Assembly (NCBI RefSeq): GCF_024372745.1
Contig: NZ_VOTZ01000001.1
Coordinates: 124,001 to 188,000, forward strand
Length of the DNA stretch: 64,000 nucleotides
Direction of reading: 5' to 3'
Origin: Methanocalculus taiwanensis
GTDB lineage: Archaea > Halobacteriota > Methanomicrobia > Methanomicrobiales > Methanocorpusculaceae
Positions within the stretch are counted from its first letter, which is position 1. Each line of letters opens with the position of its first letter. Positions 55,183 through 61,682 of the stretch are shown here, piece after piece. Under the pieces are notes generated by a model that was not told where the DNA came from, ran no database searches, and saw only the letters and a program-made list of their open reading frames with translations. Both the position numbers and the translations under genes were made by a program.

Positions 55183-55363
55183 TCAGAATACATAACCGGT
55201 AGTACTATCACCATATCAGATAGCTGACAATCCCGGGCTGATAATGAAAAATAATGTGTTATTCCAGTTTATATCGGAAATAAAGCTTCCTGGAGAAGTT
55301 TTCTGGGAATTCCAAAATCCCATAATAAATCTTTTGATGTGATCGGTGTGCATAGAGAGGTTT

Positions 55364-55382
55364 CCAATGGAAATAAAGGGGT
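55364..55382 (+). promoter_or_regulatory. ORB-like element at hel308 start
   Basis: CCAATGGAAATAAAGGGGT differs at two or three positions from the archaeal origin recognition box core CCAGTGGAAACAAAGGGGT. It lies one base before the likely GTG start of hel308, 3.7 kb from the nearest ORB of the origin. Confidence 0.6.
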
Positions 55383-55383
55383 T

Positions 55384-58324: not shown

Positions 58325-58816
58325 TCATCTGGGAGAGGCATGCGAGATGATATGCCGGATCTGGGGGATTATAATTTCCTGAAGCGCAAGCTTTACCGCT
58401 TTTGTCGATCCCGGAATGCAAAAGACTGCACGCCCCCCGATCACCCCGGCTGTCGCACGCGAGAGGATCACTGCTGATCCGATCTCTGCCACACTCTTCT
58501 GCCGGAAGACTTCGCCAAACCCATCCATCACCTTCTCAAAAGATGGAGCGACCGCTTCGATCGTCCGATCATCGGGTGTGAGGCCTGTGCCGCCGGTGAA
58601 GACGATACAGTTTGCCACAGAAAGCGCCTCATCAAGTACGTCTTGTATCACCTCGTCCTGATCCTGGACGATCCTGTACAGGGTGACCGGGATCTCAGCG
58701 GCCGAAAAGAGCTCCTGTGCAGTTTTACCGGAGATGTCATCCTCTTTTCTCCGGGTTGTTGAGACGGTGATCACTGCTGCTGTAATCCCCACCTCTCTCT
58801 CATGATGACTGCTCAT
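58325..58816 (-). CDS. moaB: Molybdenum cofactor protein MoaB/MogA family
   Basis: Protein of 163 residues of the molybdopterin-adenylyltransferase family. The signature FTGGTGLTPDDRTIEAV and the VIGGRAVFCIPGSTKAVKLAL segment are typical. It would adenylate molybdopterin before metal insertion, a step needed for the formate and formylmethanofuran dehydrogenases. It is convergent with cgi121, and its promoter lies in the origin region. Confidence 0.92.
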   Translation of the reverse strand: MSSHHEREVGITAAVITVSTTRRKEDDISGKTAQELFSAAEIPVTLYRIVQDQDEVIQDVLDEALSVANCIVFTGGTGLTPDDRTIEAVAPSFEKVMDGFGEVFRQKSVAEIGSAVILSRATAGVIGGRAVFCIPGSTKAVKLALQEIIIPQIRHIISHASPR

Positions 58817-59052
58817 ACCAGAGAATGGATCGCATGGGGTTATCTGATCTTCGATTCGAGGAGAAGAGAAAAGGATCGCTGTGTGTTATCTGGATATCCG
58901 GAAAAATTGAGCCATGAGAATCAGGAAGAAGTCACATAGGAACTATAGAAATAGAGAAGGAGTTTGTCTGTTTGTATTGGAACACAGATGGTGATTCTGA
59001 GCTCTTATTATTCGTACGGATTTTTAATGGAAGTATGTTTCTAACCAAAGTT

Positions 59053-59071
59053 CCAGTGGAAGCAAAGGGGT
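59053..59071 (+). promoter_or_regulatory. ORB element 1
   Basis: CCAGTGGAAGCAAAGGGGT, one mismatch from the core CCAGTGGAAACAAAGGGGT used by Orc1/Cdc6 proteins. Confidence 0.75.
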
Positions 59072-59248
59072 GCACGCGCATCAGGTCTGGTTTTCCATAT
59101 GTCTGACATACATCGAATATAACGAATATAAACAGACTTCTAGGGGAAATAATCCAGATTATCTAATTTTTTAATAGAGATATCAGATGATGATAAAGAG
59201 GAGAGTATTGGAGAGAGTATCATGGTATACAGATCAGGAGGGAGGGGT

Positions 59249-59267
59249 ACCCCTTTGTTTCCACTGG
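59249..59267 (-). promoter_or_regulatory. ORB element 2, inverted
   Basis: Minus-strand CCAGTGGAAACAAAGGGGT, the best copy in the window. It faces away from elements 3-5 across the tandem repeats. Confidence 0.8.
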
Positions 59268-59351
59268 AGGGAAAAGGGGAGGGATAGAGGATAGATGGGG
59301 TGATTGGATAGATGGTTTGAAGATTGTTTATTTCATTACAATTATTCTTTT

Positions 59352-59540
59352 TTGATTTTAATATATTATTTTTATTTTTGATGTTAATTTTAGTAAGATT
59401 ATACTGGTTTAATTTCAATATATTATTTTTATTTTTGATGTTATTTTTAGTATAATTATACTGGTTTAATTTCAATATATTATTTTTATTTGTGATATTA
59501 TTTTAGTATAATTATACTGGTTTAATTTCAAAATATTATT
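59352..59540. repeat. 57-bp AT-rich tandem repeats (candidate unwinding element)
   Basis: Three full copies and a partial fourth. The landmark AATATATTATTTTTATTT recurs at 59360, 59417 and 59474, with a diverged start at 59530 (spacings 57, 57, 56). Each copy also holds TTATACTGGTTTAATTTC. The block is almost free of G and C apart from the ACTGG. The period is a multiple of three, giving a spurious repeat-encoded frame on the minus strand. Confidence 0.85.
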
Positions 59541-59813
59541 ATTTTGGTATATTAGTTTGGTTTTGATATATCGGTTTTTAGAAGTTACTTAAGTATATTT
59601 ATATAGTATAAGTTACTAATGAAAAAATGGCTTCTTCTGTTATTTTGATATTAGTCAATCTTCATACCACAAAAAATCCCACAACTGAAAAACCACTCCG
59701 GTATTTCAAGATCACATTACCAGCAAAACAAAAAAAACAATCAAACCTCTTCATCACAACCTCCTTTCATCATTAAATATCTCCCAGTATCCCCCAACAT
59801 CCCCAAAAAAACT

Positions 59814-59832
59814 CCAGTCGAAACCAGAGGGA
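59814..59832 (+). promoter_or_regulatory. ORB element 3, weak
   Basis: CCAGTCGAAACCAGAGGGA keeps the CCAGTxGAAAC half but departs in the G-rich half. Confidence 0.4.
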
Positions 59833-60031
59833 GGGGGGACCCGCCTCTCATGTTCCCCTATAAAACCCCCCTATTCTCCTCTCTCTCCAAAAAAAAACTC
59901 ATTAAAACGGTTGAATTCTTTTCAAAGAACAAATTCACCTCCCCTCCATAGGAAAAAACAACAAGTGGATAATTCATTGTTCGTAATATAACTGAAGAGC
60001 AATATAGCGATAACAGGACCCATATGCTTCT

Positions 60032-60050
60032 CCAGTCGAAATGAAGGGGT
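60032..60050 (+). promoter_or_regulatory. ORB element 4
   Basis: CCAGTCGAAATGAAGGGGT, close to the ORB core in both halves. Confidence 0.65.
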
Positions 60051-60301
60051 TAGCTGATCATGAAGATCCCACGTTCTCCCGTTCTCTCTTTCCTCTCCCT
60101 TTGAATCAATATGAATCAGATACTCCCACCAGTCTCTCCTGATTGCTTCCGTATCTGCTTCAGTTCATCTATTCTCCGGGTTTTTTTGATTATCTTTCTA
60201 TCTCCCCTCTGATCGTTTTATCCAATGTCATATTTCATACAATAATTTCTGTCACATAAACATCCTATCCATCAGTTCATAGTACAATCGATACGATATC
60301 T

Positions 60302-60320
60302 CCAATGGAAATAGTGGGGT
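60302..60320 (+). promoter_or_regulatory. ORB element 5 at orc1 promoter
   Basis: CCAATGGAAATAGTGGGGT, about 80 bases before the orc1 start, placed to let Orc1 repress its own gene. Confidence 0.6.
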
Positions 60321-60398
60321 TTATTATCCAGAAGAGAATGATATATGCACGGTCTGGAGGAGTCCCGAGATGATCGAAAATGAGAGAAGTGATTATGA

Positions 60399-61682
60399 GT
60401 GACAGATGAAATGAACACATCAATGGGTCTTTTTAAAAAATACCTGGTGAACAACAAAATTTTCAGGAATCGTGAGATACTCAGGCACAGCTATCGTCCA
60501 CAGACACTTCCCCACAGAACACCCCAGATCGATTCGATTGCAGCTGTTCTCGCCCCTTCGCTCCATAATGAAACTCCCTCCAATATACTGATATATGGTA
60601 AAACCGGAACCGGAAAGACAGCATCGGTCCGGTACGTGGGGGCCGAGCTCGAGAATGCCGGCGGCCACCTCAATACCACCTGCCGGGTTGTTCACTTAAA
60701 CTGCGAGGTGATCGATACCCAGTACCGTGTCCTTGCCCAGATTGCAAAGCTCGTCGAGAATGTGGATGCGATGAGTTCTGATAGAACCAGAACCCATATC
60801 CCCATGACCGGATGGCCGACTGATCAGGTCTATGCCGAACTGAAGAATATTCTGGAAAATTCCGGAGGAGTCCTCGTCATCATACTGGATGAGATCGATA
60901 AGCTCGTCAAGAAGAGTGGAGACGAGACCCTCTATAACCTCACCAGGATCAATTCCGATCTCGAACGCTCAAAGGTCTGCATCATCGGTATCTCAAATGA
61001 TCTCAGGTTCACCGACTTCCTCGATCCACGGGTTCTCTCCTCCCTTTCAGAGGAAGAGATCGTCTTCCCTCCATATAACGCCCCACAACTCGTCGATATT
61101 CTGAAACAGCGTGCAGATGAGGCATTTGTGCCGGGTGCGCTCCATGAAGGCGTTATTCCTCTCTGTGCAGCTCTTGCCGCGCAGGAGCATGGCGATGCCC
61201 GCCGTGCACTGGATCTCCTCCGAGTATCGGGAGAACTGGCTGATCGGGAGAGTGCTGATGCTGTCACCGAAAAGCATGTACGGTGGGCCCAGGAGAAGAT
61301 CGAAACCGACAGCATGGTAGAATGTATCTCCACGCTCCCCACACAGAGCAAAGTTGTACTCTATGCAATGCTCCTTCTTCACCGTATCAACCAGAAGATC
61401 TTCACAAGCGGGGAAGTGATGCGGTTGTACCGGGAAGTCACCCGTGAACTCTCACTTGAGACCCTTACCCACCGGCGTGTAACCGATCTCATCAGTGAAT
61501 TAAATATGCTTGGTGTCATATCTACACGTGTCATATCCAGGGGACGATATGGAAGAACAAAGGAGATATCCTTTGATGTCACGACAGACCGCATCTGGGA
61601 TGTCATCATGAAGGATCCCCGGCTCGTCGAACATAATATTTCCAGGTTTAATGAAGAGCAGGCTGGCAAACTCTTTAGGTGA
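60399..61682 (+). CDS. orc1: Orc1/Cdc6 replication initiator
   Basis: AAA+ initiator of 427 residues that binds ORBs and recruits MCM. Walker A is GKTGTGKT (residues 67-74), Walker B VIILDEIDKL, sensor 1 IGISNDLRF, and sensor 2 lies in GDARRALDLLR. The C-terminal winged helix that contacts DNA spans about 330-420. The start is a GTG at 60399; ATGs at 60411 and 60423 are alternatives. Its location beside the ORB cluster marks the origin. Confidence 0.95.
   Translation: MTDEMNTSMGLFKKYLVNNKIFRNREILRHSYRPQTLPHRTPQIDSIAAVLAPSLHNETPSNILIYGKTGTGKTASVRYVGAELENAGGHLNTTCRVVHLNCEVIDTQYRVLAQIAKLVENVDAMSSDRTRTHIPMTGWPTDQVYAELKNILENSGGVLVIILDEIDKLVKKSGDETLYNLTRINSDLERSKVCIIGISNDLRFTDFLDPRVLSSLSEEEIVFPPYNAPQLVDILKQRADEAFVPGALHEGVIPLCAALAAQEHGDARRALDLLRVSGELADRESADAVTEKHVRWAQEKIETDSMVECISTLPTQSKVVLYAMLLLHRINQKIFTSGEVMRLYREVTRELSLETLTHRRVTDLISELNMLGVISTRVISRGRYGRTKEISFDVTTDRIWDVIMKDPRLVEHNISRFNEEQAGKLFR

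Follow-up and report, generated by a model that had tools for sequence, protein, structure and literature searches.

The window, a stretch of 64,000 nucleotides at positions 124001-188000 of a 210-kb contig from a Methanocalculus genome of 2.34 Mb, contains a locus that, taken as a whole, is best explained as an oriC1-type origin, the main replication origin of the chromosome in a Methanocalculus species, a reading that its sequence features make highly probable. By every feature tested the locus corresponds to a standard archaeal oriC, and as a kind of origin it appears to be ordinary. Judged by conservation among relatives, the conserved cis-element of its unwinding region is a promoter-like element of 50 bp and not the 57-bp tandem array that lies beside it.

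Genomic context and evidence for an origin

The ORBs and the 57-bp array are located between a MoCF_biosynth (MoaB/MogA-like) gene on the reverse strand (58325..58816; PF00994), which borders the origin on the left, and the orc1/cdc6 initiator gene on the forward strand (60399..61682), which encodes a 427-aa protein with the Cdc6 winged-helix and lid domains (PF09079 and PF22703, both above the cut-off). The sequence features expected of an archaeal ORB-type oriC were all found, namely an adjacent orc1/cdc6 gene, ORBs that include an inverted pair, a meltable AT-rich interval, and a change of skew. The proposal of the preliminary description that this region is a replication origin is upheld by the adjoining orc1, by an ORB layout found across the order, by the sign change in skew, and by the presence of the weakest duplex of the contig.

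Keto-amino skew was computed on contigs. In the contig of the window, of which only about 25-26 kb lies right of the origin, the skew was -30.3 per kb on the left versus +11.8 on the right (block permutation, P=0.004), and in the sister species G003 it was -28.6 versus +27.0 per kb at the origin (P=0.0004). The skew thus changes sign at the locus in both contigs, with cumulative skew minima 5 kb (own contig) and 25 kb (G003) off the origin.

Like the ORB-type origins described previously (PMC4010727, PMC3528665), the locus has inverted ORBs of the classic sequence flanking an AT-rich element, with the initiator gene adjoining; it differs from them in the 57-bp array within the unwinding element, in three right-hand ORBs that point in the same direction, and in the 50-bp TATA-type element. 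No paper in which Methanocalculus and a replication origin are named together was found in the open-licence literature. A plasmid-borne origin was considered and rejected; similar plasmid DNA was not found. Another tandem array, with 4.4 copies of a 54-bp unit, is present within an ORF at contig positions 195637-195872, 12 kb right of the origin.

ORB elements

Five ORBs were identified, and were scored with a position weight matrix (PWM) built from 35 ORBs of the genus. ORB1 (59051..59072, forward strand, 29.6 bits) is kept in seven of seven Methanocalculus, and ORB2 (59248..59269, reverse strand, 35.0 bits), the inverted ORB left of the unwinding element, is kept in both the genus and the order. 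ORB3 (59812..59833), which lies right of the unwinding element, and ORB4 (60030..60051) were assigned from the genus matrix and conservation, and ORB5 (60300..60321), which runs into the TATA-like sequence TTTATTAT (60320-60327), from the genus matrix and alignment; all three are on the forward strand. Over the whole 210-kb contig, scores above 20 bits were obtained only for these five ORBs and for one site at 55362, the next best score being 13.1, and the reversed ORB pattern, used as a genome-wide control, gave 0 and 1 matches. The order, orientation and near-constant spacing of the five ORBs are kept in all seven Methanocalculus species, and the ORB(-)/AT-rich/ORB(+) layout upstream of orc1, with at least one forward ORB, recurs across Methanomicrobiales. 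The matrix, the reversed-pattern control and the conservation in seven species confirm the earlier count of five ORBs with one inverted. The elements had also been placed directly before orc1, which is accurate for ORB5 but not for the array, which ends about 860 bp before the gene (60399).

A sixth, degenerate block without the G-string, TTCTAGGGGAAATAATCCAG (approximately 59138..59157, forward strand), was recognized in the genus alignment, where it is kept in the four closest species, and is read by us as possibly akin to an ORB. An isolated ORB on contig C2, which falls within a coding ORF, was regarded as a chance match.

The ORB nearest orc1 overlaps a probable TATA box (GGGGTTTATA, window positions 60317-60330), and this arrangement recurs in many other Methanomicrobiales. 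The box is probably that of the orc1 promoter, and its overlap with the ORB suggests autoregulation of orc1 by Orc1.

Conserved 50-bp element of the unwinding region

In a scan of 59 intervals, AAATGGCT (found in 14 intervals versus 0.2 expected) and TTTATATA stood out, and both are parts of one element of the form TATA-N19-AAATGGCT. In the window this element occupies 59591..59640 on the forward strand, 50 bp right of the array, with its TATA at 59598-59605 and AAATGGCT at 59625-59632, as defined by the order alignment and by a matrix that was built from other genera only, without any Methanocalculus sequence. A loose TATA-N19-AAATGGCT pattern matched 28 of the 59 intervals, compared with a mean of 3.2 (maximum 8) after shuffling, 3 for the reversed pattern and 1 on the opposite strand, and an anchored alignment of 54 non-redundant origins gave the element a relative entropy of 22.3 bits versus approximately 11 for shuffled sequence. 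The matrix identified one site in the 210-kb contig of the window (59591-59640, 21.2 bits; next 6.1) and one in 355 kb of G003, at the origin (22.6 bits; next 8.9), and the core pattern has a single exact (0-mismatch) match in the 2.34-Mb genome. The origins of G004, G005 and G007 also match the element, and those of G001 and G002 have diverged (scores of -0.5 and 1.5). The element is apparently undescribed in the open-licence literature.

In archaeal promoters, a purine-rich start is preceded at a distance of about 25 bp by a TATA box, and there are conserved bases upstream. The alignment of 54 origins has this layout, with the TATA at about that distance from the start and with conserved upstream bases, and on that basis the element is most likely a promoter within the origin. 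Alternatively, it might serve not as a promoter but as the site of a protein that activates the origin, equivalent in Methanomicrobiales to the ucm motif of Sulfolobus, a reading that we regard as rather doubtful. The element is origin-specific, carries more information than a TATA box alone would, and outside Methanocalculus mostly lies 48-56 bp to the left of ORB(+), in seed and non-seed origins alike, so that its spacing is near-fixed in most of the order; however, within part of Methanocalculus the spacing is 178-223 bp, and both the position of the TATA and its distance from the purine-rich start fit an archaeal promoter. It is unlikely that a promoter at this position is simply the orc1 promoter with a long leader. 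Although the element is oriented toward orc1 in every origin where it was found, the leader would measure about 770 nt here, and the presence, in Methanocalculus as in many other genera, of a second TATA (GGGGTTTATA) at the last ORB before orc1 indicates that the gene probably has a promoter of its own and that the 50-bp element probably does not serve as such.

A leaderless micro-gene starting at ATG 59628 was considered and rejected: the predicted peptides (MASSV..., and MAVFI and MTIVITF, both ending in a stop) are mutually unlike, and the ATG is not kept as a start codon across the order (ATAGCT, ACAAGCT, ATAAGCT).

In many other genera a hairpin is present about 7 bp before ORB(+), with stems of at least 7 in 35 of 64 cases versus 12 of 163 control segments. 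It lies between the TATA element and ORB(+) in loci L038, L039, L045, L051, L054, L058, L087, L101, L159 and L161, and its stems differ in sequence yet remain complementary and are not G-rich. The hairpin before ORB(+) is absent in Methanocalculus, including the window. An inverted repeat inside the ORBs of Haloarcula oriC1 is an enhancer (PMC3936714), a possible parallel that is offered as a lead rather than a test.

The 57-bp tandem array

An AT-rich array was delimited by TRF at 59325..59540 (period 57, 3.8 copies, 88% matches, score 320), and because 40 shuffles of the interval scored at most 55, the array is real and not a product of chance. The island TTATACTGGTTTAATTTC is present on the forward strand at 59399-59416, 59456-59473 and 59512-59529, with no further exact copy in the genome, and the spacing within the array is 57, 57 and 56. 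In the preliminary description the 57-bp repeats were near-identical and each carried the island; the array itself stands, at 3.8 copies, but its first copy, which resembles the second at only about 83%, does not contain the island, which is thus found in three copies. Two of the three islands contain the 14-bp palindrome AGTATAATTATACT, which occurs nowhere in the genome outside the array. The weakest 200 bp of duplex in the whole 210-kb contig falls within the array (0.987 kcal/mol per bp; next 1.131), a property that fits a role as part of the DNA-unwinding element.

Neither the array nor its island is present in any of the six sister species tested, all of which have intact ORBs, and no match to the island within three mismatches was found at any sister origin. 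Three of these species hold unrelated arrays (13-bp x 7.1, 20-bp x 3.3 and 10-bp x 7.8) and the rest nothing notable, and the best 200 bp of the sister species are comparably weak (0.99-1.12 kcal/mol per bp) without a 57-bp array. Motif positions were used for the AT-rich part, in which multiple alignment is unreliable. When the array unit was compared with putative ancestral single-copy sequence, G007 scored better than shuffles (0/200) and the other five sister species did not. Among the 59 order-wide intervals, 9 (this one included) contain long-period arrays of 42-122 bp versus 1.1 expected from the intergenic rate; 6 of the 9 are Methanoculleus-like and may share ancestry, so that the direction of the enrichment is real and its P value is overstated. 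The other long-period arrays are unlike the 57-bp array in sequence, and several are not AT-rich. The finding of arrays of different sequence in these intervals indicates that repeats in the origin interval come and go. That the array units derive from the 50-bp element by degeneration was also considered and was rejected (best array score 1.8 versus 21.2). In L085, a 43-bp x 6.7 array with an ORB-like unit (TTCCACTCGCAGTCAAAGGGGTC) is located about 0.9-0.6 kb upstream of orc1.

The array is concluded to be, in all probability, a recent lineage-specific tandem expansion that gives meltable DNA, with a sequence-specific role being unsupported, although it could still act by its sequence in this species alone. 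That it is instead neutral slippage debris without function, in an inter-ORB interval that tolerates or favours tandem duplication, is possible though less than probable: the excess of unrelated arrays, several of them not AT-rich, and the occurrence of other arrays or none in the sister species speak for such an account, but the excess is inflated by related Methanoculleus-like genomes, and the array provides the principal melt-prone stretch of this origin and so probably has an unwinding function, even if its sequence came about by chance.

Sulfolobus oriC1 provides a precedent for a dedicated factor, since its unwinding element contains an 11-bp motif, ucm, that is essential and is bound by the protein UBP, the gene of which is described as a recent acquisition of Sulfolobales/Desulfurococcales (PMC12141716). 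The ucm 11-mer, deduced as ATTATACAAAC from the oligonucleotides in that paper, is absent from all seven Methanocalculus intervals. The suggestion that the 57-bp units each bind a protein of their own or set a register for melting, and that the repeats form a new kind of unwinding element, is very improbable: it could draw on the UBP precedent, on three intact islands at 57/56-bp spacing, two with the palindrome, and on ATTATAC, which the unit has in common with ucm (a 7-base match that arises easily in AT-rich DNA), but the repeats are missing from relatives that retain the origin with intact ORBs and comparably weak cores, an outcome by which the special role fails under the refuting condition set in the preliminary description; in addition, the genome has no copy of the island or palindrome outside the array, and 57 bp corresponds to 5.43 helical turns, not a whole number, so that the units are not aligned on one side of the helix.

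Proposed mechanism and comparison with other origins

Orc1 from the neighbouring gene would bind the five ORBs, and the inverted pair ORB2/ORB3 would bracket the AT-rich element as the site of duplex opening and MCM loading. The 57-bp array would supply easily melted DNA carrying no conserved sequence signal, and the promoter inside the origin, if active, may help to open the duplex through transcription or bound TBP/TFB, or may set the activity of the origin. We tentatively extend this scheme to the order, in which origins would have an origin-specific promoter-like element in the unwinding region, often followed by a hairpin, with transcription or factor binding aiding opening and with arrays being transient; the evidence so far leaves this short of probable. 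If the extension is true, this would be an archaeal equivalent of ucm/UBP or of melting assisted by transcription.

In bacterial oriC and iteron plasmids, repeated AT-rich DNA melts at the origin. The locus resembles these in having repeated AT-rich DNA at the origin, whereas the bacterial repeats are short and conserved and those of the locus are 57 bp long and species-specific. With ucm/UBP of Sulfolobus the locus shares a short conserved non-ORB motif inside an unwinding element between inverted ORBs; it differs in the sequence of the motif, which is TATA-N19-AAATGGCT and not a repeated island, and in a lineage in which UBP is not expected. With these results the conserved parts of these origins can be told apart from the eye-catching ones, the repeats representing turnover and the 50-bp element a concrete target, and it is the element that merits the experiment proposed for the repeats. 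According to the UBP paper (PMC12141716), it would be of considerable interest to find factors of this kind at the origins of archaea that are more divergent, and the 50-bp element is a sequence with which such a factor could be sought in methanogens.

ORBs outside the origin interval

The outlying ORB of the window (55362..55383, forward strand, 32.7 bits) is directly 5' of the probable start codon of hel308 (GTG 55384). An ORB at or near the start of a Hel308-type helicase gene was also seen in several genera, including loci L038, L045, L062, L067, L074, L092 and L101, where it lies about 4-5 kb upstream of orc1, and some of these ORBs have a reversed ORB core about 55 bp farther upstream. 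This placement suggests either control of hel308 by Orc1 or an outlying part of the origin. ORBs 3 kb downstream of orc1 were not found in the window. One or two such ORBs are present in other loci: in L038 they lie at about +3056 and +3274 relative to the start of orc1, similarly in L045, L051 and L101, and near +3.0 to +3.6 kb from orc1 in L092, L097-L100, L106-L108 and L110. In Methanoculleus-like genomes, an inverted pair of ORBs about 200 bp apart is located 3 kb downstream of orc1.
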